Shown here: positions 15,856-56,459 of the stretch, in pieces
How positions within the stretch are numbered: position 1 is the first letter of the stretch
Layout of the letters: each line of letters starts with the position of its first letter
Assembly (NCBI GenBank): GCA_947034885.2
Contig: OX344752.2
Span: forward strand, 14,880,001-14,944,000
Length of the DNA: 64,000 nucleotides
Direction: 5' to 3'
DNA from: Thuidium tamariscinum
Taxonomy: Eukaryota; Streptophyta; Bryopsida; Hypnales; Thuidiaceae
Translations under genes and position numbers: made by a program
The notes under the pieces: generated by a model
What the model was told of the DNA's origin: nothing
Databases searched by the model: none
What the model saw: only the letters and a program-made list of their open reading frames with translations

Positions 15856-18800
15856 CTCATTATGAGACCTCGAAGACATGGTGCTTCTTATCGCATTGAG
15901 CGGGCTATTGCCCACCGAATGGATTGCACGGAGTACTTGTGTGCATGTCGACAATGCCGAGGAGGGAGAGTTCGAAGGGTTGAAACAGTTGCAAAGCACC
16001 ACAGAGAGCATGGAAGAGATCCCTTTCTCCCATATCCCATACTGGTAATTTTTTTTCCTCATTCTTGTCGTCAATGTTTGGAAGTTTAAAGTCAATGGAC
16101 GATTATGCACCAAATTTCTAGTAATTTGTGTAACCTGGACAAACTGTGTATGTTTGCATGTGGTGTGTACTGTGTCCTAGGTGAGTAGTGTGTGCAAACC
16201 ATAATATGAAGATACTTTTATGTCCTGTTGTCCTTCCTTTATTACTTAACTTCTAGTAATTTTCTTCTCTTAGTTTATATAAGTAAGGAAGTCCAAGGAT
16301 TCACTTGTGTAGGCCTTCGATGGTAGCAGTATACGACGTCCAAGCTCGCCAAGAAACTACGCAGAGGAAAATTATCTCCAACGAGAGAATTATCGTGATG
16401 TCCCTCAATTTGTTTGGCCGCAGAGGACTGAAGTTAATGTCGATGACTTGGTGCACGAAGCATATGGGAGAGCAGATGAATTGCATGCACAAGTTGATGA
16501 ACAGGAAAACATTCCACCTGAAGAAGGTGACGCCTAGTCGCCTACACTGGCGCGGAGCTGAACATGAGTGATTCCGACATGGAGGAGTTGCTCAGGGAGT
16601 CTACGACTGCAGTATACGAAAATTGTTCAGTCAATCGACTGCAAGCTGGCATCATATTACTTAACATGTGTAATTTGTTCGGAGTTTCCAATACGTTCTT
16701 GGACGAATTGCTGATGTTTTTAGCTGGGGATTTACTCCCGTCATCAAACTGCCTCCCACGTAGTAGCTACGAAACAAAGCGAATGGTGATGCGCATGGGG
16801 TTAGAGCACCAAGCAATACATTGCTGCCCAGAAGGCCATGTTCTTTATGAAGGACCAGAAAACGAAAATCTTATGGAGTGCCCAACATGCCAATTGCCAC
16901 GATATATATCAGGTTCTAATCAAGTTCCACGGAAGGTTTTGAGGTTTTTTCCTCTCGTTCCACGCTTGCAACGTCTTTTCCGTTGTCCTGAAGTAGCAAA
17001 GTTGATGAAATGGCATGCATCAAACCATTCTGAAGATGGTTTGATGCGTTCTGTTGTTGATAGTCCTCAATGGGCATCTGTGGGTAACATTGATCCTTCT
17101 TTTGTGACAAAAGATACCAATGTCTACATGGGGCTTGTTGGAGATGGAGTCAACCCTTTTGGGAATCAATCTGTGAGACACAGTTCATGGCCGATTCTCA
17201 TAGTGTTATACAACCTTCCACCATGGTTGGCAACGCGCAAGTTTTTCTTATCCTTGACTCTGATCATGCCAGGTAAAGTACAAGTTCTCCACCTAAGTGT
17301 AAACAATTGTATTGTTTGTAGTTTAGCGGGTTGGCACATACCAAAATTGTTGTTTCCCTTTGGTACATCAGATTGTCATGCATATGTTAATAATCATGAA
17401 GCAGTTTTGCATAGAAGGTGATAATGTGGACAAACCCATATTTTAAAAGCACACAAGACATGCAAGAAATTAACTGAGGACATGATTATTGTACTGTGAA
17501 GGTCCAAAGGCACCGTCTCCACATGCATTCGATGTTTATCTTCGCCCCCTCTTGACTGATCTACAACGTCTTTGGGCCGGTGTCCCAGCTTGGGACGCTT
17601 CAATGTCAGAAGGACATCGGAATTTTAAAATGAGGGGAATTTTATTGTGGACAGTGAATGACTTTCCGGCATATGGTTTGATTTCAGGTCAACAAGTGAA
17701 AGGATATCGTGGTTGCCCTATTTGTACCAGTGGAACATGCGCTGAGCATTCAACCATTCTGAAGAAAATGCTGTATCTCGGACATCGCAGGTTTTTACCC
17801 CGTGAACATCGATTCCGCTGCGCTAAAGTAGCCTTTAATGGTTTGCAAGAGTGGGGTGAAGGTCCACAGAGGCCTACAGGCGAAGACATTCGAAGACAAG
17901 GTGAGGAGAGGGAGTTATACATCTCTTCTGGAGGGGCAGAAGATGGAGATGAAGACCCGGTGAAGAGTCATGGAGTGAAGCGAGTAAGCGTGCTTTTTGA
18001 ACTGCCATACTGGGAGGTATGTTTGAAGTGTTTGATCCTACCTGAAGAGTCTTTATTTTTTACTTATTTATTTATTTATTGTTGGAGTGGTTATGGTCTT
18101 TCGTAATGACCTCTTGACCCTGTCATTTTATTTATTTATTCATAGAGTAATCTCCATTATTAAAAGGGTGGGGTCACATTGTCAATTGCAAATCGCATTC
18201 TACAGAATTATTGTGTCACTAATATTTTTTATTGATTGGCCTTAATGAACTAATGAAACTGCAATTAAGTAGTCTAATAATTTTGAATGATGTAAAATTA
18301 TCCTTCAAAGAGCTTGCATCTGTTGTATTGCTCCATTTTAACATTGTGGGACGGGTGTTAAAAATATTCTCTCCAGTTTCTTCTATTAATCACTTGTTTT
18401 ATTTTGAATTGGAGATATTATGTACAGTGATCGCAATAAGTGATGTTAAAATTAAAAGGAAATGGACATTGTAGTATTGTACTAAAATGAAAAATAGAGA
18501 TCAGAAATTGCGAATGAACTTGAGTTCCCAGTACAATCGTACTGTTCTGAATAGAATGTGGAAATAATAAAAACCAACTGAAGAGAAAGAATCCTAATGG
18601 ATACATTTGTTCTGACCAACCATTAATGAAGTCATGAAACTCACAGAAGTTGCAAATCTTACTGTGGACGTGTGCATACCAAATCTCTTGACTCAGTTGA
18701 CTGTAGTCCAAGTTTGGCCTTGTAGATGCCTAAACCTTTGATGTCAAATTCTCTGAATGATGATGTGAACTTCAATAGTGTGAGATAAAGGAATTCTACA

Positions 18801-21645
18801 TAACTGAATTTATATTTATCATGGAGACAATAAATCCGCAAACCTAATGAACCTGTTGTATATTCCCGAACCAGCTAGGAGTTTTGAATTATGGAATAGC
18901 TTTAGGAATTAGGGTTCTTGTATGAAATAATTTTGATGTCTGGTTCTGAGTCGGGTTGTAGATGTGATACAAACCCTTCTCCATTTCAATTCTTGGTCTA
19001 GTATATTTTGAAGGCACCTTTTAAAAGGAGTGAACTTATTACAATGTAAGGCTCAAATATCTTGTCAGATTCATTTTATGTGGATTTACTTGAGGAATTG
19101 AAAGTTTTAGTAAGTACAGTAGAGAACGGTTCGCATGGCATAGGAAAAAAAAGGTCTTGATACAAATATTTATTTTACCGAATCAGTGTGAAGAACTAGT
19201 CCGTGTCTGTTCAGTTGTTAATAATTCATTTGTGTGTATGACTTATGAAGAGCTGACATTGATCCCTTTTGAACTGTGAAATGTAGAAATTACCAATTCG
19301 GCATTTGGTGGACACCATGCATACAGAAAAGAATGTCTGTGAAAACATCCTGAAGACTTTGCTAGGAGAGAAGGACAAGCCAGCAACACGTGCTGATATG
19401 CAAGGAAAGGGCATACGTGAGCACTTGTGGTTGAAGGCCGTACCCAATAATACGAACAGGTTTTTCATGCCCGATGCTCCATATGTCCTGTCCAATCCTG
19501 ATAAGTCAATTTTTTTGAAGAACTTAGGGAGCATAAAAACTCCCACAGGATACAATTCGAACTTGGCAAACCGCATAGGAGAAGGAAAGATTCGTGGATT
19601 AAAATCTCATGATTACCACATCTTGATGCAACAACTTCTTCCAGTTGCATTACGAGGTATTGGAGATGCTAGGGTGACTAGTAGTGTGATACGTTTGTGC
19701 CGACTCTATCGGAAATTGTGTGCAAAGGTTGTAGACCCTGCACGAAAGGAGGAGATGATGAATGATGCCGCAGAGGTTCTTTCCTGTATGGAGAAAGATT
19801 TTCCACCATGTTTTTTCGATATCATGGTTCACCTGACTATACATTTGGTGGAGGAATTGTTTATCTGTGGCCCTTGCCCAACGCGGTGGATGTATCCATA
19901 CGAGCGTTATTTCAAGGGATTGAAGGGATTTGTAAGGAATTTAGCAAAACCCGAAGGAAGCATATCTCAAGGATATCAAGTGGAGGAAGCACTTGGTTTT
20001 ATTACCGAGTATCTTGCACCGTATCATCCCACGAGTCGTAGGGTGTGGGATGACAAAGAGGACCCTAGCATGACAGATGAAATATTGGAGGGAAAAGGAA
20101 AGCCGCGGAAGTTGTCGGATCAACTACGAGGTTGGTTGCACAGCTTCGTGTGTGACAATGCAACGTAGCTAGAGGAATATCGACAGTAAGATACAATCTA
20201 TGTGATTCTGTTTGTTTTATAATTTGGGGTAGTTAGTTTTGAATATGCATTTTGAATTGTGAGTTCAAAAGAAATGAAGGAATATATATGAACGAACTTT
20301 GCCCATTTCTAAAGGTTTGAAGGGATTTTTTGGGAAGTTAGTTTTAATTTTGAAGTAAAACATCTTGGAAATTACAAAAGGAATTTTACTAATGTACTTC
20401 CTCTAATATACTAATTTCTTTTGCAAAGGTATCGTGATGTAAATATAGTATACTGAAGGTCAGTAGATATTGAATCAAGACTTGAATGGCACCCTTCGAT
20501 TCTCTGGTTTTGCGTTGCAGGAGGTTGTAATTTTTTACAGGATGCCATATATGGTTCTGAAGTCCTTTCCTGTGTTGACGTTTTGCTATACAATTGTATT
20601 GAAAAGTCTGAATCCAAAAGTGGGCTTGTCTGTGGAGGGTATATTTGTTTAACATTAATTATGTCATAGCATTCCCATACTTGTGAGCATCATGTGTGCA
20701 GGAGTTGGATTTTAATTCCATTTTTTGGTGGGAGATTTCAGGCAGTATGAAGCATTCTGTTTGGAAAGAAATGCTGCTCGAGACCATTTTCGACGTGATC
20801 ACCGCAGACGTCGTGGACGTAGAATGGAGGCATTTCCACCAGAGTTGGCGGAGCCCTTGACATTCCCGTTGTGGTTAGAAGTGCAGGTTCATTCAGACAC
20901 AATCAATGAGCCTGTATTAGTGGTGTCAGATGATGTCATGAATTTGTCTAAAATGCCTTCGCAGTACGCCACAAAATATCGTAGCATGTGGGCCTTTGGC
21001 AACCACCTGAGAGTACTAGGTGTCGAGTCACAACTTAGGACGTCTGATTCTGGTGTTGCTGCTACTTTCAATCGTCCTTGTCGTTCCGGGCTAGGAGACT
21101 CAAATCCTGTTTTTGCAAACATTGAGTATGTTGGTCATGTTCAAGAGATAGTTGAACTCAATTATGGTGGTTTGTGTGTCGTCGTTTTAATTTGTTCATG
21201 GGTTAGGGCCAATTATAGAGGGAATAATGCTACGATTAGGAAAGATAAATGGGGATTTTCAATGGCTAATTTTGAACGAATGATACCATTGGGCCCCGAA
21301 TCATTTGCTTTCCCTATGCACATTGATCAGGTGTTTTTTTGCGACTGCCAGGAAGAACCGAGGTGGAAGATTATTTTGCGGAAAGAAGTCAGGGGGAGAA
21401 GAGTTGTTGGGAATGTGGGGGCAGAGGAAGAGCCCACAATGTTTGAAGCAGGAAGGGATGTGGATCATGTAGCCCTTCAACCTCCTTCTATTATTTTAGA
21501 AGAAAATCCAGAGGTTCCACGCACTGGCAGACGCGTGAGAAGGGAGGACCTTGCAACTCAATGGTTAGAAGAGCAAAATGTGGTCTATGATGGAGACGTG
21601 GGGGATTCAGGATCGTCATCAGACGAGGACGCAAACTTCACTTAA
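15856..21645 (+). pseudogene. tnp2 (TNPD-like) CACTA transposase, frameshifted and interrupted
   Basis: Exons inferred: 15,856-16,044 (ATG 15,862), 16,313-17,272, 17,502-18,016, 19,287-20,185 and 20,742-21,645; all four introns have GT..AG ends and matching phases. Exon 2 starts acidic and Tyr-rich; exons 2-3 hold the tnp2 domain ('GVNPFGNQSVRHSSWP', 'LYNLPPWL', then 'LWTVNDFPAYG' and 'GCPICTS'). Exon 4 matches DUF4218 ('LKSHDYHILMQQLLPVALRG', 'FPPCFFDIMVHL', 'RWMYPYERY'). Exon 5 matches DUF4216 ('VELNYGG', 'HIDQVFFCDC'). The enzyme family cuts CACTA ends. Two lesions: a one-base loss near 16,533 shifts the frame (TAG at 16,535-16,537; the correct frame resumes by 16,534), and TAG at 20,166-20,168 interrupts exon 4 five codons before its donor. 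Everything else is open, so inactivation is recent. Confidence 0.93.
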
Positions 21646-32625: not shown

Positions 32626-35600
32626 GGATGCAATGAAGCGCAAAACACTCGATGTTGAGGATAGTCTATACATTGCTACTGGTCCTAGGTAATATCCTAC
32701 CCTACAACTCTTCAGGTTTTCTTCAACTAAAGATCCTATTCTCACTCCAAGTATGACACTTTTGTTCTTGTTTATTATTGTAGAGCTCAAAATGTCTATA
32801 CTTTATGATTATGTCTTTATTCTTCTAGAATTCAACGTCAACCAAGTGTGGAGAGATTTTGTTGCTTTATAGTTCAAGTGAAGTCAACAATGGTGATCCA
32901 GTTTTAGAGCCCAAGCACAAGATCTTTCTTAGCCATAGTGGAGCTCAAAAAGAATTTGTACATCACTTATATGCAGCCTTGGTGGTACATTGTCACTATC
33001 CCTTTTTTGATAGATGTCCTGAGAGTTTGCCCAAGGGTAAGAAGTTTCCAGACTTGATAGTCAAGGCTACTCGACAATGCCAACTATTTGTTGTGGTCAT
33101 ATCAAAGGAGTATTTTATGTCCAAGTGGCCCATGATTGAACTCAATGCATTTGTCAAAGCTACGAAGTCAAATAAGAATCAAGCCATACTTCCTTTATTT
33201 TATGGTCTTTCTGTGAGCGAGTTGAAGGATGAAAAGAGGAGGCAAAGATGGTTTGAAACATGGGAGACATTTGCAAGGGAGGATTCCCAAGCACGTATAA
33301 AGGTTGATGATTGGAGGTATGCACTTGATGAGCTTACAAAGTTCAATGGCTTACCATATGATCGAGAATTGAAGGATGTTGTGGAGTATGAGAATGGAAT
33401 TGTGTCCCACATTGATAAATTAGTGTTACCAGACATCAAGTGCCAGGATTCCCATGTTCAAGGCAATGCACATGAGGTATGGTCCATATAATTTTGTTTG
33501 TTGTGTTTTTTTGGTTCTTACTTTTTGCTTTGATGTAGGATTAGTTACATGTCCGTTCAAACTCTTTTCATTAAGTTGTGTGCAATGTTGAAGGATGTCA
33601 ATGTTGGTTGATCATTTCTTCTATTTTTGGGACATTTGGTTAGACTATTGGACCAAATTGATTTACTTTTGTGATTGTTGGATATCTAGGTTGTTATTGA
33701 GAAGATGAAGCAAGTTCAAGCTTCTAAATCAAATCAAGTAAAAGTGTTTGGGTTGTATGGAGTCGGTGGTATTGGTAAGACCACGACTTGCCAATCATTG
33801 TGCAATGAACTTTCAAGTGTTTTTGAAGGGAGGGCATGCCATATTGAATTTGATAGCCCATCATCAAATTTCAAGGAGTTATTGCAAAAAGTGTTGATCA
33901 AATTGACAAGCAAAAGTCGAGAAGTTGTTCAGCAATTGAATGAAGGAGAAGTAAGTGGTGAAAAATTTACATTTATATTATGGTTCTTGGTCATCCATGT
34001 AAATTTTATTCGTTTTGGTTTTGAATAGTTTGTTGAAGGTTATGTGGATTTTGGTATTATATCCCCTATCTTCCTATGAATTTAACCAATGTTATTATGA
34101 CACATTGGCTTTTAGTCCTTAGTATTACATCCAATGTTAAAACTAAGGCAATGTACACTCGATTAAAATGATTAGTCCAAAGTGATATTTCACTTTGCAT
34201 GATATGAAGGCAATATTGGCATCGGCATTCACTTACATTCAACTATTAGAGTTATATCTCCTTATGATTGTGTGGCTGATGTGTTTGTAGTGCAAGCATG
34301 TTCTATACGAAAATCTTATGAAGCAAAAGACTTTTTTGACTATTGATAATGTATGGGACAATGCCAAGTCAATCAAGCAAGCCCTAGTGTTTTTGCGAGC
34401 TCCTTTCCATCTAGACAGTTTAGTGCTTGTGACTACTTGAGCTCAAAGGACTTTGGAGCTTTTGGGAGTAGATGGAGGTGCATGCCTTGAGATGCCTGAA
34501 CTTGCACAAGGAGATGCAACAAAACTATTCTTACACTATGCCTCAAATGGACAACAATTTACAAGTGAAGAAGATATGAGTTTCATCGACTTGTGTGTTA
34601 AAAGGTGTTATTTTTCCAAAGGTGGTGGAGCAGGTTACCATTACCACCCATTGGCATTGGAGGCTTTGGGTAGGCAACTTGGTTGTCATGGAAAAAATCC
34701 CATTGAATGGATAGAAATCTTACCTTCATTGCGAAATTTCAATGCATTTTCAAGGCCAAATGAAGTTTTTGATGTCTTGAGAATTAGTTTTGACCTACTC
34801 CAACCAATGGAACAAGCCTTGTTTATGGATGTGGGCATCTTTCTTCGTTACTTATGTAGATTTGCCCATGAAGACTTCAATTGCATATTATGGTCAGAGC
34901 ATCTATGTGCTCTATATAAGCAAGATGATCGGCAAATGCAAAGTTTGGTATATTATCACTTTTATTCAATATTCATTAAGCTTTTGATGTGGAAAAGCAT
35001 CATTTTGCACATCATGAATAAGTTATTAGGATGTAGTTGTATGAATGATTTCATGTTTCAACACTTGCTTTTAGGGTTCCATGTTTGTTCCTTTGTCAAT
35101 TTTTAACTTCCCAAGTGTTGGTTTGCATTGTGGATTTTGTCAAGATTAGATGGTGGATGATTGAGTTTTTTGATGTAAAAATTGTTGTTTTATTGAACTT
35201 GCAGTTGAATGGCTTGAAAGGAAAAGGTTTGTTGCAAGATGCGAATTTGTCATTGGGGAAGTTAAGCATGCACGATTTGTATCAAGTATTAGGAATCGAA
35301 GATGGATGTATATAGATATCCATGATGGGGATCTTTCAAAGCTTGAGGTTACACCTGCTGGTGGATGTTGGGAGAATTTGAAACGACTTTGGATAATTGA
35401 ATCTTATGATCCTATCCTTTCTTCTATTGAAAATTTTGCGGGTATTGAATGGCAGTACTTTTTGAATGTTTTGGTATTACGACTTCATGATTTGAGCTTT
35501 ATAAAGGGAACATTGAATTTGAAGGGCATGAAGTGTTTACGAAGCTTGCAAGTGTTTAATTTATCAAGTGTTGAAAGACTTGAAGGCCTTGAAGGATTGA

Positions 35601-40231: not shown

Positions 40232-40946
40232 GGGCCGCTTCACACTATCGCCAAAGGTTGAGAGTCCGTTCGTTTCCACCAATCAAATTTCAAGAAATCA
40301 TGAGTTCGGACTCTCGACACTTCATACTACATGGCACAATCCAAAGTCCATCAAAATTTGATGTCCCCAAAACTGCCTACATGGCAACCAAATGCTTACA
40401 TGACGACGGCCTCTCGACTAGAGTTTGGGTCGAGCAAAAATGGAGACCCAAACTCTAGTTGAGAGGCCGTGGGAGTTATTTCATTAAAAATCAGAATCTA
40501 ATAAGATCTTAATCATTAGATTGGCATAGGTTTGGACTTTGGGCTTAGCCATGGGCGGCTTCACACTATGGCCGTCCAAGTTGAGAGGCCGTGGGAGTTC
40601 ATTTTCAAGGGTTTGGACCTTTTGGACTTGGCCTTTGGAGGCTTCACACTATGGCCATCCAAGTTGAGAGGCCGTGGGAGTTCATTTTCAAGGGTTTGGA
40701 CCTTTTGGACTTGGCCTTTGGAGGCTTCACACTATGGCCATCCAAGTTGAGAGGCCGTGGGAGTTCATTTTCAAGGGTTTGGACTTTGGACTTGGCCTTT
40801 GGAGGCTTCACACTATGACCAGCCAAAGACTTTAAATCCTATTTTTTATTGCCTTTTAATAGCCCATTTCTTCGGACTCTCGCCAAAGTTTGGGTCACTC
40901 ACTCCCACGGCCTCTTGACTTGGTCGGCCATAGAGTGAAGCGGCCC
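40232..40946. mobile_element. PIF/Harbinger-like non-autonomous element, TSD TTA
   Basis: The left end GGGCCGCTTCACACTAT and the right end (reverse complement GGGCCGCTTCACTCTAT) form an inverted repeat with one mismatch. It is flanked by TTA at 40,229-40,231 and 40,947-40,949. The empty site is readable in the related repeat at about 24,545 ('CATAGATTTAGGAG'). A TTA target and GGGCC-type ends are typical of PIF/Harbinger and Tourist elements. No transposase; the centre holds three 83-bp tandem units. Confidence 0.88.
40576..40819 (+). repeat. 83-bp tandem repeat, three units
   Basis: Units start at 40,576, 40,659 and 40,742, each beginning CCAAGTTGAGAGGCCGTGGG and ending with CTTCACACTATGGCCAT. 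Units 1 and 2 are identical; the third lacks a few bases and has small changes. Each unit repeats part of the element terminus (TTCACACTATGGCC), so amplification may have begun from the end of the transposon. Confidence 0.95.
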
Positions 40947-43104: not shown

Positions 43105-43757
43105 TTTGTTGATATGGAATTTGGGACCATCTCAATTACACTTTTCACAATGTGGTTGGTGTCATTTGCAATTGATGAAAGCTTGGTTGTTCCTTTCAAG
43201 CTTGAGCTCTTAATACTTGCTTGTCTATTTTTTGGTGTCCATGTGATGATACCCGGTTGAGATTAGGAGAGGTCAGCCTAAGTGGAAACTGGTTCAGAAA
43301 AATATTCTAGGAATCTAACACAAGTTGTTTCATATTTGTTGAAGCATTACTAAATTAGTTATGAATTTCCAAACACAGTCTAGCATAGGGTCCTATTTGT
43401 GATTAGTAGGTCTCACAAACTCATACATGCATAGTTTGGAAATAAATTTGGTTTTGTTCAAGAACTAGCATTGCAACATGGAAAAAGTAATCAAGGTGGT
43501 TTCTAAATGCGTTCCTTCCTAAATGCTTGAATTTATCATTATTTCAGATTTTGTAACACTTGTAAGAAGGGAGTTCAACAATCAAGTCTTATTTTATTCA
43601 CTTAGTTGACAATAAAGCCACTATAGCTCTAAAACCATCCATTGAAGAAGGAAAAAACACACTCTTATCATGCTCCAATGTAATTGGAAATTCATTTACC
43701 CACAATCAAGTTCCATTTCACAGCCTCCTACTAGATGCTTTCAAAAGCCTGAGCGAT
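43105..43757 (+). repeat. Repeat segment into which the LINE inserted
   Basis: The first 190 bp (from 'ATGGAATTTGGGACCATCTC' to 'GAAACTGGTTCAG') recur just after the LINE at 55,503-55,681, and the rest matches 59,275-59,755. The target therefore seems to have been a tandem or repeated block. The segment ends with GCCTGAGCGAT (43,747-43,757), the left target-site duplication of the LINE. Confidence 0.7.
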
Positions 43758-44264
43758 CAAAAGGGAAATTGGGCTGGGGGGTTGGGGTGCTCGATGCGGA
43801 TCGCAGGAGGAGCGATGGCTCTGTAGTTTGCAGATCTTCGAGTAAGACATCGATCACTCCCGATTGAGATCCGCTAGCTGAGTAGATTTGCGTATACCGA
43901 GGGCGTGCGGCTGGCGGCTTGGACTTTGATCCAACTGCTCAAATCCACTAGGTTAGTATAGGAATGCGATCTTCTTTTGAACCTTAAGCATTTTGTGGCT
44001 ATAATCCGGTTTAGCCTCCAAGATCTCAGATCTGTTTAAGCTAAGCGCATCATTATTCTCACGGATCTGAACCGAACAAGGGTCCGTACATACAAACTGT
44101 AGTATCTCAGATCTAGTCAGCCACAGAGTGAGCCGGCTACAATGGACTCTTACAGCGACGTAGTTAGAAGGGGGAGGAATTATTCCGCAGATGAATACCT
44201 GGACTTTCACCAGCAACAGGCTCGTACAATAGAAAATGGTTTCTTCAGCAACAGTGCCAGATCT

Positions 44265-47200
44265 TAGATCCAAAGACAATATCGACCGGGTAACCAGGGA
44301 AACCAAAGCCACCACCGAGAGATGTCACCTGTTCACTAGCGGCATCAGGTTCAAGGTCGGGGCTCGTGGCAGTTGTCGTACGCGCACTCTAGCAGAAAGC
44401 ACCTTTATCACACCCAAACGTGATAATATGACACGGAATATCGTCCCAGGAGATTCCAGACGTTACTAATAGTTGCGTTTTCCGGTTTCTAGGTTTATCG
44501 GATCAAAACACCCCAAGTTACTACTCTCTTCCGGAACCTTGTGTCCGGAATTCAATCCGGATCCGTCTCTCCACTCTTTCCGGATCCGCTTGGGATCCGT
44601 CACCTCTATCCGGATCCGGATTACACCTTTTCCCAGATCCGTCTTAATCCGGATTCCGATTCCGTCACTCAATAATCGGTTTTAGATACCCCTGTTTTAC
44701 CCTCAGGGGGTCCTCTCTTGATCTTTAGAGGGGTAGGGACTCACCACTCATAAACCTCGCACTCTCTTCTCTCAAACGAAACACACAAAGACACACAAAT
44801 ATATCTGTTTTTGCAGTAGAGGCAGATCCGGATCCTCACAACTTCCCGGATAGCTCTAGGCCAATCCGGTTAGCAGGTCACTCAGGACTACTTTCACTTA
44901 CCCTTACTACAACGACAGATCCAAAGACATCTAAGCCCAAAAGGACGTACTTTCCTAGATCAGCAGATCGACTTAGTGGTTGGCAGACCTTCCGGTGGAC
45001 GGAAACTTTCCTCTTGGCGGCTGTTTAGCTCCGCACGAATCCACCCCCGTGGTTCCGGAACCTCCTCCACGCTCACATCGGATCACCGTTCCAGCAAATT
45101 AAAGGCTCCACGCACAAACGCACAACTCTAAACCCAAGTTCTAAGAAACTGGTCACTCAGTTCAGACCTCAGTTGCCTAAGTATCCGGATTCCTCCTCAC
45201 CCGTCCCTCTTGCCTCTCAACACTCCAACAAACACACCAAGAAAGACTCAAACACAAGTCAGAGCTAGAATGTCCATCCGCCAGCTCAAATTAAAGAAGG
45301 GAATGAAAATACAGTAGAATATGCACTAGGAGGGAATGACAGGCCAACTAACTTGCCTGCCCCTTAAAAGCCAAAATAACAATGAAAGTCAAGGCCTAAA
45401 AACAGAAACGGAATGCCAACAAGGCAAAAGAAAATCCGAAACAACCAATCGGAGCCCAACCGGATTATCCGGAAAGGTTCGGTCAGTTGTCCCTAAAGTT
45501 CCGGATCGGGGCCCACATCCGGGAAATCCGTCCAGGAAACTTCCGTCCCAAAATCTCAAAAGCCTACCTAACTACTCAAACCTTATCCTACTTACGCGCC
45601 CGCTTCGATGTCGCGCCCACGGGCGGAACTGAACTTCTTCGCGTTGCTGCCTTGGGAGGGGGGGCCTTCTTGGTGGCGGATCGGGTCTGCCTCTTCTGAA
45701 TCGGAACCGGTGGCGTTCCACTGTCTTCCGTCGAAGTCTCCTCCGAATCCGCCTCGGAGCTTTCTGAATGCTCTACTCCCTGAAATCTGCCCTGCCCCCT
45801 AACTTCATCACGGATGGTGAGGGGCGGATTATCTTCCCTGTCCGAGTCATCCAAGATGACTGTCTTGCTGCGCGGATCCTTACCCGGAACCTTGTCTGGC
45901 TCGTTCATGTGGGCGAACTTCTCCGGATTCTCCCTGGCCGGATTCGCCAGGGCCTTCATCCGGATCTCCAGGTCGAGCCGTGGTGATGCCCTCTTCTCTT
46001 GCGGATCCGTAGGTGTGTTGGACAGTCCGGCCGCATTCGGATCCGATCCGAGCTCGCCGAGGTTCTTCACGACCGGCGAGTTTCCGAGTAGTTTTCGATC
46101 TGTCGACATCCGTCCTTGCGCACCGGGGCTGAAGTCCGTAAACACCTGCTGGTTGAGTAAGCTCGACAGTCCTTCCCCCAACTCCGGATTGAGAGCCCCT
46201 ATTAAGGCCCTCATCTCTTTCAGCACCCCTTCCATCTTGGCCTGATAATCCACCAAGATGGTGATGACTTTCGATCCGGTGACGTGCCCTTCCGTCATCA
46301 GCCGAGCGAAAAACAGTTTCGCTTTGATCACCGTATCCGCCGGCTGGGCCACCAACTCTTGCAGGTTCCGGACCAAGGAGGTGGCCTCCACGATCTTCCC
46401 GTTGGCGACACTGAGATCACTCTCCAGGTACGTCACCGTGCTCTGGAGTCCATTCCGCTCCTCTTCCGCCTTCCGTCGTCCCTCTTCAGCTATCCGGGCC
46501 AGATCTTCCGCCTGTCGGATTTTATCCGTCTGATTCCGGGCCACGTCCTCCCACTTCCGGATCTCTTCGTCTTTCTTCTGCAACACCTCTTGAGTCGGAA
46601 GACGGTTGAGGATTTCCGGAATGTCTTCGATCTTCACTGCGCCCAGCTTCGTGACAATCTGTTCGAGTATCGCCTCATATTGGTTGTTGTCTGCGTGCGC
46701 CATCATGGCGTGACGGATGATGGTGTCGAAGTGGTTCCGCTTCTTCTTCCCTAGGGTTGATCCGGGTGGATCCGGGTCTGGGTGTCCTCTCTTATCCGGC
46801 GTTGTGGACTTCTTCCGTTCCGGCTTTCGTTCCGGCTGGCTGACCGGCTTCTGCTCTTCCGGGTCCTCGTCCATCGGCTCGTCTTCCGGGTCCTCCGGCT
46901 CCTTCTCCAACTCATCCGTCAAGCCATACTTAAGGATCTGAACTCCCATCTCATAGCGGAGGAGTTCCGGGCCACTCAATACATCATGGTGGTGGTACAG
47001 GTGGAAGAGATAGCCGCTGATAGTGCTGGTCTTCTCCCGTCCCACATGCTCGGCTAGCCGGTTAACTACCCACTGGAGGACTATACCCCAGTTGACTATC
47101 CGTTTCTCAAAACACCCGAAGATGGTGTTCGCTACCGTTACGGTGACACGGGTAGGCTTTTCCGGATAGAGGATGGGAATCAAGAATTCCAACATCCGTC

Positions 47201-48220
47201 TATGCCGATCGTTGGTGCAATCCGGAATTGAGTATCCGTCCTTAGGGTGGGGCGGATTCCGAAACTTGTTAACACCAAACTTGTCCGTCCGGGGAGCTAG
47301 ACCTAATCCGGTTTTATCAAAACCGTATACATTCGCCCAGATATCCGGCGTCCAGGCACTCGATCTACCCCTCACTGTGAGTTCGTACTGATTCGGAACT
47401 CCCGAGAGGATTTCCTGTACTATCTCGTCACTCTTCACACTCCAAGGGCGCCGGATCAACCCATGACACCCTAGGAAGACTAGATCATCTTCTAACTCCT
47501 TTCGATGCTGCGGATCGGAAGGGATGACTGGCGAAATTGCCTTGGCCGTCACTACCGCTCGCTTCGGATTGGAGGAACTCGCCATCTCTCCGCCCGAGTC
47601 GGAACTTGTCGGTGCGGTCGGCACCGACCCTGAACTAAACCCGGAACCGATCTCTACTGCTCACCACTCTTTCTCTCTCTATACGCGCTCCAAAACCTGC
47701 ACACAAGCCGTACCTCGATTTGCCAAATCGAAAAGGAAAAAATGAAGTGGAGAGGAAGGGTTTATATACCAGTCGGTACCCTGCGTTCCCAGTTCCCCTC
47801 GGAACGGCGCGACGTTCCCCGGCCGTTACGCTAGTTTCCGTAGGTCGGCGGCATAGACCCGTAGGTGCCGACCATCCGGAACTACCTCGGATCCGTCTTT
47901 AGGTATACCGGATCCGTTCTTGACAACATCGGATCCGTCTTTGACAATATCGGATCCGTCTCTCCAAGTTCCGTCTTCCGGGAAGTTCCGTTCCGGATAT
48001 TGAGGAATCCGGATCCGGAAACTTATGCCCATAGACCGGAAATTCACCTTGGTCAATCCGGTTCAAACGGATCCCAAGGGAAGAAGACCCTAATTATCTT
48101 CTTTTCGCCATATCTAACCCTAAAATTTTGAAAAATTGAGCTTACTCTATATACTATCTTCCTTTTTTTACTTACCTGATATTTCCGGACTGCGACAGCA
48201 GTTCAACAAAGAGTATCAAA
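44265..48220 (-). mobile_element. Unclassified 4 kb insertion inside LINE ORF1
   Basis: LINE ORF1 is broken between GCCAGATCT (44,256-44,264) and GCAAGATCT (48,221-48,229). These could be a 9-bp target duplication with one mismatch, which would suggest a Mutator-like element. Convincing terminal inverted repeats are not visible, and I found no long direct repeats of LTR type. It carries one long minus-strand ORF and non-coding arms (44,265-45,587 and 47,586-48,220) full of TCCGGA and GGATCCG words. Its higher GC content sets it apart from everything around it. Confidence 0.7.
45588..47585 (-). CDS. Uncharacterised 665-aa protein carried by the insertion
   Basis: An uninterrupted single-exon frame. 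I take the ATG at 47,585 (product begins MASSSNPKRAVV); the frame extends about 13 codons further without ATG. Residues about 40-210 form a globular region ('SSAWTPDIWANVYGF', 'RRMLEFLIPILYP', 'VNWGIVLQWVVNRLAEH', 'GYLFHLYHHHDVLSGP') that loosely recalls the putative plant transposon protein domain found beside plant retroelements. An acidic Pro/Glu stretch and a basic patch ('LGKKKRNHFD') follow. Next comes a strong coiled coil (about residues 330-420, 'EEIRKWEDVARNQTDKIR', 'RRKAEEERNGLQS'), and last a Ser/Pro/Asp-rich tail ending in basic 'KRQTRSATKKAPPP'. No protease, RT, integrase or transposase motif is present. It sits in a decayed LINE yet has no stop, so it is younger than its host element. 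Function unknown. Confidence 0.75.
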   Translation of the reverse strand: MASSSNPKRAVVTAKAISPVIPSDPQHRKELEDDLVFLGCHGLIRRPWSVKSDEIVQEILSGVPNQYELTVRGRSSAWTPDIWANVYGFDKTGLGLAPRTDKFGVNKFRNPPHPKDGYSIPDCTNDRHRRMLEFLIPILYPEKPTRVTVTVANTIFGCFEKRIVNWGIVLQWVVNRLAEHVGREKTSTISGYLFHLYHHHDVLSGPELLRYEMGVQILKYGLTDELEKEPEDPEDEPMDEDPEEQKPVSQPERKPERKKSTTPDKRGHPDPDPPGSTLGKKKRNHFDTIIRHAMMAHADNNQYEAILEQIVTKLGAVKIEDIPEILNRLPTQEVLQKKDEEIRKWEDVARNQTDKIRQAEDLARIAEEGRRKAEEERNGLQSTVTYLESDLSVANGKIVEATSLVRNLQELVAQPADTVIKAKLFFARLMTEGHVTGSKVITILVDYQAKMEGVLKEMRALIGALNPELGEGLSSLLNQQVFTDFSPGAQGRMSTDRKLLGNSPVVKNLGELGSDPNAAGLSNTPTDPQEKRASPRLDLEIRMKALANPARENPEKFAHMNEPDKVPGKDPRSKTVILDDSDREDNPPLTIRDEVRGQGRFQGVEHSESSEADSEETSTEDSGTPPVPIQKRQTRSATKKAPPPKAATRRSSVPPVGATSKRARK

Positions 48221-50333
48221 GCAAGATCTAGGAGGCAGATCCCACGCGGCATGGTCACACTCAACGGGAAGACGGAGTGCCAGTGCATACGCCTCTCCAG
48301 CCGCTGCTCACGCTCAACCCCCTGGAGGCCAGATCTGACGAAGTTCTCCCCGCCAACCTAAAGCGCAACTGGGCTGGGCTACTTTTGCGGAACCATCAGG
48401 TACTTCCACACAATGCCATCGATCCCATCTCTATTGCGCATGAAATCTCTTATCTCCAAGATCACGTCATAATAGCTAGTTTCGTAGGGGGGAACTTACC
48501 AGATGAGGTCACAAATGAGTGGCTTGAGGATCTGGGCAAACTTCTGCTACCCTCACGCATTTCTCTACACAAGGCAGCAGGGAACGGGTTTCGATACGTG
48601 AAACTCGACCGCATAGAGGGAGTAGAGAGGGCTGTAAGCATCCCACTACATAGATTTTGGGATGGAGAACCAGCCTACCATAAGTGGATTCCAGCATTCA
48701 ATCCCCTGTCTTCACAGGGCATTCAACATACATGTTGGTTGACGCTAGACAATTTACCACTGGAATTCATTCCGTTCTCAAGCTCCATTGCCGGCATGCT
48801 AGGAAAAGTTCGAGCCATTGATACCCCTAATCTGGCGATCCACACCCATCGCTACTGCATTGATCTCAACATTACTGGAGGATGGACTTCAGCCATCCAC
48901 ATAGAAGGGGGGGTTCATGGACCAGCTGAGATACTCGTCACATATGAGGATTCGAGATTGAGCTGTGATATTTGTCGGAATCCTTTTCACCACACGAGCA
49001 GTTGTCCATCCAAACGACGAGGTAAAAACCAGGGGATCATGAAGTCACAACAGGGTACTAATACTAGAATCGGGGCTCAAGGTTCATCGGAGGAACAAGT
49101 TCAGAACAGGCGAGGTAATCGACCAGTGTCCTCAGTTCAATCGAGGGGAAGCTCAACTCGCCGGCACACCAAATACGACGCCAATCAACGCCAATCGAAC
49201 GTTACGCCATCGACCGCCCAGGATGATGAAGGGTTTATTCCTGTAGAATATCGACGTCAAGGAAGATTCTTTAAAAGATCAGCGACTCTTGCAAGCTCGA
49301 GCCATTATTGGGCACGACGCATCTCGGCTGAAAGACGCAGAGAGGACACAGAATGTCACAATGTGCATCCGACACCCAATGACCCAGAAACTTTTAGAGC
49401 CATATCATCAGATTATGGGCCTCAATTGAACACATCTCGAGGGAACAGTAAGGAGATCATCACCACCCTGGTTAGTAATGACACAACCAAACCCTCTACC
49501 ATATTACCATCTCCACCAACCCTAAGATCAACCGACCAGCCAGTTCGATTCCATGAAGCCCAGTACCCACTTATCCCTTTACAACACCTTGAGTCAAACT
49601 TAATCATCCAACAGGCCACCACCCTAGCTCCATTATCACCAGTTACGACATCCAACCCAACCCATTCAATAGGAAGCCCTAGACCAAATCAAGAACCCCA
49701 CCAAACTCCCAAGACCACTAGATCATCAACTAAATTCCACCAATCATCGCCTCCGTTACAAAACCAGGAGAGAAAATCAGAGGTCAAGGGTGACAAACAA
49801 TCCGAAAGTCCTCGCTATCCTACCCAACTAGCCACAGATTCCCAAACTCAAGCCACGTACAGAGATGGTAAACTTATTCATCCCGAGACTCGCCACTCAC
49901 CTACCAATATCGGTAACTCAGCCTTTGAACCCGTAGGACATATCGTAGACCAAGATTTATTTGTAGACGCTCAACCTAACCTCCCTACTGCCCATGACAC
50001 ATCTAGATTCACGCACCCAGGGACTGAAGATGGAACTTCGCTAGCTTTAAGAGTGTTTAATCAGATTGCAGGGTCCTTGCCAACTTGGGTACCATCGACA
50101 TCGACATCGAGCGACGCTGAACCAAGTGGAGAGAAGGACGCATCCATTCGTGGCATGAAGGCCACAACACGCACTAGACAGGGCGCGAAGACTCAACCCC
50201 TACCCTCAACAAGCGGCAACGGTTCCAGATCAAACGACAACGCGTTAGCCACATGGGGTTACACAAACAGTCAACACCATGACTCATCAAACCGAGTTGA
50301 GAGCGCCCGGTCCAATCCTCCCCAGTAATTGCT

Positions 50334-53300
50334 ATGAAATTTACAATCCTATCTCAGAATGTGAGGGGTTTGAACGACCCCTCTGCCATTGAAAACTTGA
50401 AACTGTATATCCGTAGTCACCCAATAGACTTTATATTCCTTCAAGAACATAAGCTTCGTGGGATTGGGGCAACCCAACTAGGTACACGACTTTGGAAACG
50501 AGCATCCTCGTTCTGTACTGAAGCAACACCAGGATATACCATAGAAGGTAGAAATGCAGGAAAAGGCGGAGTAGCTTCGCTGATTGCCCCCAAATGGGCA
50601 AGACAGATTTCACAATCAGGAACACTCTTAGGAGGCTGCGCACACTGGTTCATCCTCTCACGGATCCCGGGGGGAGATATAGGATTTGCAAACATATATG
50701 CATCTCATGAAGCTTTTCCTAGGCGTGTAATGTGGGAAATGTTATCCAAAGAACTCCCCATGACTTGCCGTTGGATTTTGTTGGGGGATTTTAATATGGT
50801 GGAAAGACGCAAGGATAAGTCGAGCCTATGTGGTAAACTCCTTTCAGGTCAAGAAAGACTCCTTTTTGATGGGCTAAAGGAATCCATTCAAGTTGAAGAA
50901 GTCCCATTAACTGCTCCCACTCTCAATTTTTCCTGGGACAACTCGAGGAGTGCTAACAATCGGATCATGGCTCGCCTAGACCGCATATATGTCTTCAAAG
51001 ACCCCACGGCTAACCAACGGATGATAACCGAATACAAGATTCGAGGAGACCACACGCGCTCCGACCATTGTCCAGTTTTTATAACGATTGAGTTGGCCAA
51101 GTCATCCTCCAGACCAAACAGATGGGTATTATCCAACGTGCACCTTCAAGAAGCAGATCAACATATAAGAAAGGTATGGTCAGAAGCCCCAATAGCAGCC
51201 TCATTCTTTTCAAAACTAAAACGTGTCACCAGATTTTATAGAAGCTTTTGTATACAAAAAGCTCGCATTCTCAAAGATTACGAAGACACCCTTAGGATCA
51301 ACCTGGAGAAAAAGACCATCGAGCTCCAAGGTGATCCTACGTCCCTTCCATTGCAAGAGGAGGTCAACACAGCGAGAAGTAGTCTCGGTGATTTGGAATC
51401 GAGGAAGATCGAAGGACAAAAGGTCAGATCAAGAGCGAGATGGAGATTATTTGGCGACCGTCTCTCCTCAGAATTTTTCCAGGCAGTCAAGGAGGGCCCA
51501 ATTAATTCATCAATCACCGAACTTCGAGATTCGGACGGTTCCATGCATCATGATCGACAACAGCTTGAGAGAATCTGCACCGAATCTTATGCAAAACTAT
51601 ACCATCAAGGCCCATCGACACCTCAGGAGCTCTCAGATCGAGCAGACATACTTTCACGAGTTAAGTTCTGCTTCACCCCAGATATGATACAGATCCTGGA
51701 TAGGCCTTTGTCGATCGAAGAACTCCATGAGGCGCTGAAACAAATGGCTACTGGAAGGAGCCCAGGTCCCGACGGCATTACAGCGGAGTTTTTTTGCCGT
51801 TTCTGGGACATGTTGGGGGAAGAATTCACAATCATGGTACATAAATCTATACAAAGAGGGCAATTCCCAGGAGGTATGACATCCGGCACTATCATCCTTC
51901 TCTTTAAATCAGGTGATGCTGCTAACCTATCTAACTGGCAACCTATTACATTATTGAACGTTACGTACAAAATAGTCGCTAAGGCATTACAAATCAGACT
52001 TCAAGGCATTTTAAGAGACATCATTAGCCCGGAGCAATCAGCCTTTCTGCCCTCCAGGCACATTCTAACGAACATTCTACTTGGGTGAATGCAAGAAAGA
52101 CCGACCGGTTTTTGTAGCATTCACTTGTACTAGCTAGTACTAGTGAACTTTTGGAAAAAAATATTTAAAAATTAAAAAAAATATGGATAATTAGAATAAT
52201 ACTATAAACATTATGTCACCAAAATTTCAGATCCAAAAAAAATTTGGATCAAAAGTTATTCACAAAATAGGCAAAACAAGGTTTTTGAAGAAAATAGATA
52301 CTTTGACATTTTAATTTGTAAAAAATAGGAAAAGTAATTTTCAAAAAAACTAAAAGTTGTCAATTTGAGAAGACTTCATGATGAAGAGATTTCATCAAAA
52401 TAATGATCTTAAAACCATTTTCAATGTTCACAATTGCGCGCGCAAGGGAACCCTATTTGCATGAATGTAGAAGATATAAAATAATTTTTTTTTTAAATAT
52501 TTTTGGTGGACACATGCCTCTTTAGTGTGTTAATAGACCACACAAATTTCAGCTCTAGATTATTAATTTTGAGTAGTCCCTAGTACTAAAAACCCCTAAA
52601 CTGCAAAGTGTGACAAATTAGCTTAATTGAAATTTAAATATAAAATGATTTTTGAAAATTTCTGAAAAATAATTTCCCTAATTATTGTCTAAATGCTGAT
52701 CTTCACAAAAAAATTCAAGTCCATTGACTTCAATCTGCAAAAGATACAACCAATTACAACTTGGAAACTGCAAGTGTGACGCAAAAAATGGTCGGTCTTT
52801 CTTGCATTCACCCGCTTCAGTATGAGACTGTGGAATGGGCGAAGGAATCTGACCAGGACCTTATTTTTCTTAAGCTAGATTTTTCTAAAGCTTACGATAT
52901 GGTTTCATGGGAATTCCTCTTTAGTGTAATGAGACAAATGGGAATCCCATAATCCTTTTGCCACTTGGTTATGATGCTTTTGCAGGACGCTTCCGCAACG
53001 GTGCTATTAAACGGCAAACCCACTAACTCATTCTCCATTTTTCGAGGCGTCCAACAAGGGTGCCCTTTGGCACCCTACCTCTTCTTAATTATAGGGGAAG
53101 CTCTTACTATAGCTGCCGCAGTGGAACAGGAACACGGGCGCATCCAAGGTATTCAACTGCCAAACAGTAAGCTCAAACAACTCATATCCCAATATGCCGA
53201 TGACACAGGGTTTTCCATCCTTGGCAAAGAGTTATTTTTGAGAAATATTATCTCCCTCATGCATAAATTTGGAGCAGCTTCGGGTCTCCTCATGAATTGG

Positions 53301-55334
53301 ACAAAGAGCATAGGTTACTGGTTTTCTAAACTATGTAGACCAGCTTGGACGGAGGGATTTGCTATCACTTGGGCACCTCAGGGTTCACTTACGACACTTC
53401 TGGGAGCCCCGTTTGGCATTTCTTTATCGACACAGGACATCGATGGTTTTCTTCAACAGAAAGTCACGAAGAAGCTAACGTATTGGACCTCCCAAAAGCT
53501 ATCCCTAGCCGGTAGGGTTACAATAGTGAACGCCATCCTTCTTTCAACCCTATATTATTTTATTGCGTTATGGAGCGGGTCTCTTCAAGCTATTCGAGTC
53601 ATCAGAGAAAGTATTCGTAATTACTTGTGGAGCGGCTCTGAAACTAGATGTCGCTCAAGGGTCAACTAGGCAGATTGTTGTCTCCCTAAATCCATCGAAG
53701 GATTAAAACTGCTAGATCCAGAGGTATCTCTCACAGCCCTCCTTGCCAAGTGGATCTTATTTGCCATTGAGCCTGGCATTTCCCATCTTAAGATTCTTCT
53801 TAGATATCGATTGGATAAAATGAAACCGCATCCAAAGGAGGGTTTTTGGTTTCCTTCACATGCCTGGCTCATGATTCAACGGCCGTCTGCATCTCGAGGC
53901 TCAAAAGTTTGGAACAAGACTATATTTGCATGGCGCCGTTTGACTAAGCACATCACACCGAATCCACCTACCAATTTGGATGAGGTTCTAACCACAAGCG
54001 TTTGGTGGGGCACGAGCTATATCGGCTCAAACTTCCGCTTTGCAAAGGAACGGGCTCGAGATCTGGCACGCCAGGGATTGAGATCGATTGGGGACCTATG
54101 GGATCAGGAACAACGCAGCTTCCGACCCTGGGATGAGCTGATAGCATTATTTAACCTCACAGAGGCTGATTTACAACCATGGCGCTTTCTGATTTCACAC
54201 ATCCCTCCCAAATGGATGGCCTTTCTTACTAGCCAGGCTGACTTTCTTCGTGCAGGGCAATGGGCAGGGATATTCCACAATGTCGATGACAAACTTCCAA
54301 CAATAGTTTGGAAAGCGAACAGGCCTGGGCCACAACTGCACCATTCTCGAATCCAAACATATACTATCCCTGCAAATGCAGCCCAAGCCACGATTGGCCC
54401 CACAACTCGACAACTCACATTCCGTCATGAAAACAGTGTAGCCTATGAAGTTCGTGGTGTTATTAGGAGGGTAAGAATCATCGAGCAACCAAAGCGCATT
54501 TTGGGGCAGGGGATATTCACATTCTATGGAGCTATTCAGTCATTGGCATTCGATCCAGGGAGATGGGCATGGGCTGGGGGTAAAAGCCTCACGAACTACT
54601 CTACAACATTAGGCCGAGGTTTACTCATTCAACCCAATCAGCTCAAGCGCTCAATCCCATCTAAATGGCCAGACACTCTCCCCCAAAACTTCTTACCAGA
54701 TTGGCGTGATTTATGGCACAAAACTCGATCACAAAAGGAAGCTGCCTTCATGTGGTCAGTTTGGCATAATGCAGTAGCAGTGCATTCGTGGAGGGCGCGC
54801 ATTAATCATGATATTGACACCAGATGTAATTGCTGTGCTGAAGAACTGGTGGAAACACCCGTTCACAGGTTTTATTTCTGCTCGAGAGCTCAGGAAGTAT
54901 AGGATTACACACAGTCTATTTTACTTCAGTTAGTAGGGACCCCAGAGTCAGCAGATCCCTCTCCAAGATTTAACGTTAGACAATGCATTTTTGGAGATGC
55001 TATCCCACGCAAGTTCAACCACTACAAGACTACTTGGTCGCTACTCAGAGGATCAGCCTTATGGATTATCTGGATATCTAGGAATAGTCAGGTGTTCACT
55101 CAAAAACGATGGCCCTCGGAATTAGCACAGTCCGCTCTTTGGCAGGCGCTTCTGGATTCGGGTAGAGCGGCTCTTCTTCGAACGCAAACCATTGTGCGCC
55201 AAAAACCTCAGCAAGCCCAAAAATCTTGGGCCAAATTTGATCAGCTCTGGTTACATTCACCTGCCATGGCATGTAGGATCAACAACAAAATTCGGTGGCA
55301 AAGTACAGGTCCTAAATTGAGGTGTTTCATTTAG
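50334..55334 (+). pseudogene. LINE ORF2: endonuclease / reverse transcriptase / zf-RVT
   Basis: ATG 50,334. APE-type endonuclease first: 'LSQNVRGLND', 'FLQEHK', 'WILLGDFNMV', 'RSDHCPVF' (to about 51,090). Reverse transcriptase next: 'GRSPGPDGI', 'SPEQSAFLPSRHI', 'LKLDFSKAYDMV', 'GVQQGCPLAPYLF', catalytic 'QYADDTGFS' (about 53,190). The C-terminal zf-RVT region follows ('AAFMWSVWHNAVAVHSWR', 'CNCCAEELVETPVHRF'). A 731-bp MITE at 52,083-52,813 splits the RT domain; with its duplication it adds 735 bp, so the downstream frame is unchanged. Three stops: TAA 52,950-52,952 (likely from CAA), TAG 53,667-53,669 and TAG 54,900-54,902 (both likely from TGG). Otherwise the frame is open to TAG 55,332-55,334. 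The protein nicks target DNA and copies the LINE RNA there. Confidence 0.95.
52083..52813 (+). mobile_element. MITE, GGGTGAATGCAAGAAAG family, copy in LINE ORF2
   Basis: Perfect inverted ends of about 24 bp (GGGTGAATGCAAGAAAGACC ... and its inverse). Flanks are ACTT (52,079-52,082) and GCTT (52,814-52,817). Removing the element and one copy of the flank restores the LINE reading frame through 'NILLQYETVEWAKE', which proves the insertion point and a 4-bp duplication with one later change. The interior matches 2,843-3,591. Confidence 0.93.
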
Positions 55335-55453
55335 GTTGTAGGGTTCACACTCGGTTCCGACTCCTTGGGTTGGTTCGGTGGCCGGTGGGTCTTTTTCTCG
55401 CCTGGCTTTGTTGTTTTCGTGTTCTTAATGCAGAGGGCTTGCCCCTTTTGTTC

Positions 55454-55476
55454 AAAAAAAAAAAAAAAAAAAAAAA
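55454..55476 (+). repeat. LINE poly(A) tail
   Basis: Twenty-three consecutive A residues directly before the right target-site duplication (GCCTAAGCGAT). This marks the LINE 3' end and its transcription direction. Confidence 0.97.
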
Positions 55477-55487
55477 GCCTAAGCGAT

Positions 55488-56459
55488 TTCAGAGCCCTCT
55501 CCTATATGGAATTTGGAACCATCTCAATTGCACTTTTCACAATGTGGTTAGTGTCATTTGCAATTGATGAAAGATTGGTTGTTCCTTTCAAGCTCGAGCT
55601 CTTACTTGCTTGCTTGTCTATTTTTTGGTTGATACCCGGTTGAGATTAGGGGAGGTCAAGTTGAGTGGAAACTGGTTCAGGTTGTTTTGCTGATTGACTT
55701 GGTTCATCCCTTGGTCCTCCATTCAATCTTTGATATGCATATTTTTGTTTTGAACATCCGGGGCAACGCTTTTTTTCTAGTACAGTAAAGTTTTATTAAA
55801 ATGGCAATATTTCATATGCCATTTTCTAGACTGTGAAGTCTCCATGGAAAACCGACATCCAGTATCGAAATAGATTTTTAAAATCTATGACAAATTTAGA
55901 TTTTAAAGTACAGGATCTAAATTGTAAGAAGTATCAAAATAATGGAAATTTTTCCATTTTAATGAAATTTGCCATTGGTGAGATGTGAATAACCGTCACC
56001 CAAATCATGCTTTATATCTGGGAGCTTGTGTATTTTCCAAGTGCTTTCTCTTGAGATTTGGGCATAGGCAATGCGTGTTCCAAGGGGATGATCAATCATC
56101 ATGCGAGTTGGGGGTAAGGTAGCAACATCCATAACAGTTACTGCACCCATAACTAACAAGTAGAGTGCCCTTAAATTGTCTTCAATAGTACCTCCAAATT
56201 GTCACTCACTCTTAATTTTGATTGGTAAATTCTGAATTTTTTAGATTTTGTTGTGAGAGTCAAAATAGATTTACTAGAGTGCGGTATAGAGTGCCCTAGT
56301 GAGTTCCACTTTGAAAATTCACACAAATTAGATGACTTGTCTAAAAATTCTATTTAGTTTTTTGAAAATTCATGATTTTTAGTTACTAATACTGTAAAAA
56401 TATTTTTTCCAAAAAAAGATACCTTCAACTCTACTAAATTGCTTATTTTGACGGTTATG
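55488..56459. other. Repeat-derived intergenic DNA after the LINE
   Basis: 55,503-55,681 repeats 43,113-43,309. The rest is AT-rich; 56,290-56,450 weakly resembles about 30,020-30,170. No gene seen. Confidence 0.55.

Follow-up and report, generated by a model that had tools for sequence, protein, structure and literature searches.

What kind of element carried an uninterrupted frame of 665 codons into a plant LINE whose own genes are broken? A sequence-only reading of the window (the whole stretch of 64,000 nucleotides of Thuidium tamariscinum DNA analysed here) had placed an intact long ORF within an insertion in a dead LINE, and had proposed that it encodes a gag-like or accessory protein of a non-autonomous family. 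The locus contains the following features, given with their positions in the window and the source of each assignment:

43758..55472 (about), plus strand: host LINE of the plant non-LTR type, dead and itself hit by two later insertions (flanks, poly(A), Pfam matches)
44143..44373, plus strand: probable start of LINE ORF1 (MDSYSDVVRR...), interrupted by the inserted element and carrying two in-frame stops (sequence read)
44369..44373, no strand: left copy of the target-site duplication GCAGT (scan of end pairs)
44374..48197, direction unsettled with minus slightly favoured: inserted element of 3824 bp, TGTCG...CGACA, read as a probable solo LTR (scan of end pairs)
44530..48189, no strand: span of the TCCGGA palindromes in the insert (motif count)
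45588..47585, minus strand: 665-aa ORF (P0001) with a predicted helical N-terminal part, a charged linker, a coiled coil and an acidic, then basic tail (sequence read, simulations, structure models)
47766..47773, minus strand: TATATAAA box (TATA box), some 180 bp ahead of the ATG of the ORF (sequence read)
47881..47961, no strand: 21-bp tandem repeats, CGGATCCGT at 47888, 47909, 47930 and 47951 (repeat search)
48198..48202, no strand: right copy of the target-site duplication GCAGT (scan of end pairs)
48203..50328, plus strand: remaining LINE ORF1 (...KRNWAGLLL), interrupted in frame by one stop close to its left end (sequence read)

The reading frame and its host LINE

The intact frame exists at exactly the coordinates proposed, 45588-47585, to which we add that it is read on the minus strand (47585 to 45588); the first plus-strand frame across the same interval contains many stops. 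The stop-free run holding the ORF extends over 690 codons, against a mean longest run of 181 and a maximum of 342 in 1000 order-2 Markov simulations of 44480-48200, none of which (0/1000) reached the observed length. The ORF is far longer than expected by chance, and its G+C content differs between codon positions (0.60/0.42/0.67), in which it resembles coding DNA.

Its host is delimited by flanks of the form AAAAGCCT(G/A)AGCGAT at 43743-43757 and 55473-55487, two 15-base copies (AAAAGCCTGAGCGAT and AAAAGCCTAAGCGAT) that differ by one mismatch, and carries a poly(A) at the 3' end. Pfam identifies an endonuclease (E=4.1e-10), RVT_1 (E=8.2e-08, in one piece) and zf-RVT (E=5e-10) in the LINE ORFs, and the part of ORF1 to the right of the insertion has a weak similarity to DUF4283 (E=0.23). 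Together with matches to DUF4218, DUF4216 and a TIR domain elsewhere in the window, these families point to a plant host. The proposal that the long ORF lies within an insertion in a dead LINE holds: the probable ORF1 frame contains three in-frame stops around the insertion, and ORF2 contains stops as well as a second insertion at 52083-52813, which splits the reverse transcriptase. This second insert of 731 bp is MITE-like, with inverted repeats of about 32 bp that are 94% complementary, and its target duplication is not clean. A search of 43700-55600 against Rfam gave no match at the gathering score.

Boundaries and contents of the insertion

The insert at 44374-48197 has the TG...CA ends that are a feature of solo LTRs, and the GCAGT duplication on both sides has a length of 5 bp, within the 4-6 bp expected of a solo LTR. 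The combination of TG...CA, 5-bp inverted termini and a 5-bp duplication occurred in 0.2% of 5000 shuffles when a wide space was searched and in 0.06% when the search was confined to a restricted space, whose limits were the final TCCGGA motif and the point where LINE ORF1 comes back into frame, and 2/2000 random placements in the real window satisfied the same end criterion; these frequencies are post hoc, since the criterion and the restricted space were chosen once the candidate was known. The inverted bases matter here, because TG...CA with a 5-bp duplication alone was obtained in 16% (wide) or 4% (restricted) of the shuffles. Any 5-bp inverted termini combined with a 5-bp duplication were found in 7% of the shuffles in the wide space.

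Within the restricted space, the pair 44374/48197 is the only solution with a target-site duplication (TSD) of 4-10 bp and inverted termini of at least 4 bases, as no such pair exists for TSD lengths of 4, 6, 7, 8, 9 or 10. Six pairs with a 2-bp TSD and one with a 3-bp TSD and 4-bp termini were judged to be chance or motif matches. Notable among the other pairs are the ends 44530/48189: their 7-bp inverted termini are the TCCGGA motif itself, the outermost copy of which stops 8 bp inside the right boundary, and their duplication measures only 2 bp. The end scan also returned three 7-bp direct pairs without inverted termini. Like 44530/48189 and the pair with a 3-bp TSD, they count against 44374/48197. 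Removal of the insert and one copy of the duplication brings the probable start and the body of LINE ORF1 into one frame, with three stops between them, an outcome with a chance of 1/3; this argument is weak, because the joint is also spanned by another frame that stays open for 99 codons.

No terminal direct repeats of at least 25 bases were detected at the ends of the insert, the longest exact match between the end regions being 16 bases at the motif, so that the entire 3824 bp would be one LTR. Relatives of the insert elsewhere in the window were not detected either (the best tblastn E was 4.1; no tblastx match reached 0.01, and blastn gave nothing at E<=1). Its observed/expected CpG ratio is 1.02, higher than in the LINE at 48203-55450 (0.68), in the part of the LINE to the left of the insert (0.82) and in the window (0.59), which suggests that the insert is younger than the LINE. 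With such an apparently young insert, an intact frame could be explained without present-day selection.

Upstream of the ORF, no ATG lies between TATATAAA and the ORF's own ATG on the minus strand, and the four 21-bp units precede the TATA box by about 110-190 bp in ORF direction, so that by position only they may be enhancer-like. If the LTR runs in the minus direction, the ORF would be in sense and lie in R/U5; in the plus direction it would be antisense in U3. The TATA box and the upstream repeats slightly favour the former. AATAAA is absent from both strands of the insert; plants often manage without it. Ten further stop-free stretches of the insert were compared with Pfam, with no family for nine of them and a sub-threshold hit to DUF6799 (E=0.1) for one. 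A small hairpin near the left end (TTATCAC-8 nt-GTGATAA, 44405-44426) was read by eye.

The insert has accumulated TCCGGA, which is present 25 times in it (8 times in the ORF) against 2.4 expected, and 4 times in the rest of the window. Similarly, CGGATCCG is found 10 times in the insert against 0.15 expected and 0 times in the rest of the window, with three copies near the left end, two in the ORF and five near the right end. These arrays may be protein-binding sites.

The 665-aa protein

Two single-sequence structure models (mean pLDDT 43.9 and 36.6) are of low confidence outside approximately residues 331-390. They predict a helical N-terminal part (approximately 25-230, low confidence) and a long helix from about 331-332 to approximately 465, which is confident only at about 331-390 (block pLDDT 68-88); the charged linker carries KKKR at 280-283. 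The occupancy of heptad positions a and d in 28-residue windows is up to 1.0, and together with the helix predicted from about 332 this corroborates the strong coiled coil noticed earlier. The same is true of the basic tail, which is visible directly in the sequence after an acidic stretch at the C-terminal end. The supposed globular N-terminal region, however, stands only in part: it is plausible from the predicted helices, but both models fall below a pLDDT of 50 there and are unreliable.

Neither the whole protein nor two pieces of it retrieved any Pfam family at E<=10, in a scan whose HMMER filters conceal very weak matches, and this includes gag and transposase families. The domains of plant extra ORFs (PF03078, PF20167, PF10536 and PF04195) gave no profile match to the whole protein or the two pieces. 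The N-terminal part recalls by eye what we take to be the Transposase_32/Athila ORF1 pattern; the profile search gave this likeness no support. In keeping with the earlier remark that known transposition enzyme motifs are lacking, we found no transposition enzyme and no Pfam transposon domain. The protein also has no CCHC knuckle and no membrane helix, a feature considered for env-like extra ORFs (highest 19-residue Kyte-Doolittle mean 0.87), and no PDB sequence matches it at E<=1. Comparisons with collections of viral and prokaryotic contigs yielded 6 and 15 pattern matches, respectively, of which none was confirmed, and plasmids yielded none; these misses say little, because the protein is a plant protein.

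A charged 473-aa ORF at 7630-9051 (minus strand) is likewise without a Pfam match, and presumably resembles the TNPA-type partner of CACTA elements. A missing Pfam match may therefore say little in this genome. The strand of the 473-aa ORF is opposite to that of several ORFs at 16564-21645 (plus strand), two of which were tested and match DUF4218 (19305-20165, E=3.4e-29) and DUF4216 (20725-21642, E=0.00015, under the curated cut-off), domains that occur around CACTA-type plant transposons.

The carrier of the gene and comparable systems

TG...CA ends with a 5-bp duplication are typical of integrase-mediated LTR elements. Judged from these ends, we consider it reasonably probable that the insert is an unusually large solo LTR, of 3824 bp, of a plant LTR retrotransposon and itself carries the gene for an accessory protein. 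Since the ends and the duplication fit a solo LTR, the ORF would be an LTR-borne gene, and the internal part of the element would have been lost at this site. An integrase would have inserted the full element into LINE ORF1, thereby creating the 5-bp duplication, and recombination between the two LTRs would later have deleted the inside and one LTR. With transcription starting from the TATA box that the LTR itself contains, the products would be a leader of some 150 nt and the 665-aa protein. The architecture of the protein suggests that it is probably nuclear, dimerises via its coiled coil and is accessory to the element, most likely acting on its own LTR or its nucleoprotein.

LTRs are ordinarily non-coding, and genes inside them are unusual. 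LTRs as long as about 5 kb have been documented in plants, as have TSDs of 4 or 5 bp (PMC6317226). Among the open-access papers retrieved, we recognised no plant LTR with a protein gene from the titles and the first lines of the abstracts; of two plant papers among them, one concerns the Fie2 gene, which lies within an LTR retrotransposon and not in its LTR (PMC1560396), and the other contains a phrase about transcription start sites (PMC7319988).

The features of the insert also invite other explanations. Its CGGATCCG clusters near both ends, and a protein with a coiled coil and basic stretches, would fit a defective DNA transposon, CACTA-like or other, of which only a TNPA-like protein binding the subterminal repeats (the end palindrome clusters) is left. 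Short repeated motifs near both ends and a non-catalytic protein are the TNPA features that liken the insert to CACTA elements. One CACTA/CAGTG end pair is present at 44334/48285; however, CACTA ends with a matching 3-bp duplication are lacking, as this pair is flanked by GTT and CAT and the likeness of its two ends stops after roughly 7 bases, one of them mismatched. Moreover, neither the ORF nor the ten further stop-free stretches contain a Pfam transposase domain, and we regard a DNA transposon as unlikely. We are somewhat more sceptical of a non-autonomous, gag-bearing retroelement whose LTRs were lost or became undetectable. Gag-only non-autonomous LTR elements do exist, and a structural protein that binds RNA could have the predicted helices, the coiled coil and the basic tail seen here, but the protein has no CCHC knuckle, Pfam returned neither a gag nor a transposon domain, direct repeats long enough for LTRs are missing at the termini, and the carrier has solo-LTR ends with a 5-bp duplication. 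Of the original proposal, the product of a mobile element remains likely, while nothing directly supports gag; an accessory protein encoded by the LTR is a better fit than the gag of a non-autonomous family.

Equally improbable in our view is that the ORF is a Tat/Athila-type extra ORF (aORF/eORF) left in a rearranged remnant and not a regular LTR gene. Plant extra ORFs encode orphan, divergent proteins, some of them nuclear or with an SMC-type domain (PMC7264820; PMC6317226), which would suit the 665-aa protein, yet the neat TG...CA ends and the 5-bp duplication are not expected of a deletion remnant, and no extra-ORF domain of Pfam was matched. Among known systems, these extra ORFs are closest to the gene described here; the sag gene of MMTV is closest by position only. 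Examples of the former are maize Grande gene23, rice RIRE2, Silene Retand and Phaseolus PvRetro13 ORF2, as well as Athila ORF1 (PF03078) and Transposase_32 (PF20167), the latter being described as related to Athila ORF1 (PMC11728184). The protein of the Grande extra ORF is nuclear, PvRetro13 ORF2 was reported with an SMC domain (PMC7264820), and plant extra ORFs are highly divergent as a group (PMC6317226). Like the 665-aa protein, their products are orphans, encoded beside or against gag-pol and, in the accounts cited, of unknown function. They differ from it in the absence of a shared Pfam domain and in their position, which in those accounts is internal to the element and mostly on the stretch from pol to the 3' LTR, whereas the present ORF would sit in the LTR. 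In MMTV, the sag gene lies mostly inside the LTR, in U3, and therefore survives in solo LTRs; one study classed 490 of its 527 shortlisted sag contigs as solo LTRs (PMC4667437). This likeness is one of position only, MMTV being an animal betaretrovirus, and we claim no relationship.

If the solo-LTR reading is correct, solo LTRs, which are usually counted as dead remnants, can still yield a mobile-element protein. A bolder version, in which the plant LTR family encodes in each LTR a dimeric nuclear protein that recognises its own CGGATCCG/TCCGGA arrays, appears unlikely; were it true, each solo LTR would remain a complete gene unit that could act in trans on other copies. Since one short segment carries both the gene for the protein and its possible target motifs, a plant LTR with an intact gene would also offer a place to test the roles of plant extra ORFs.

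Two observations concern other parts of the window. A TIR-domain ORF at 32859-33491 (plus strand; PF13676, E=4.1e-16) may, with further ORFs up to 36184, belong to a plant gene of the TIR resistance type. Tandem 83-bp repeats occupy 40520-40826 and have an inverted partner at 40901-40946.
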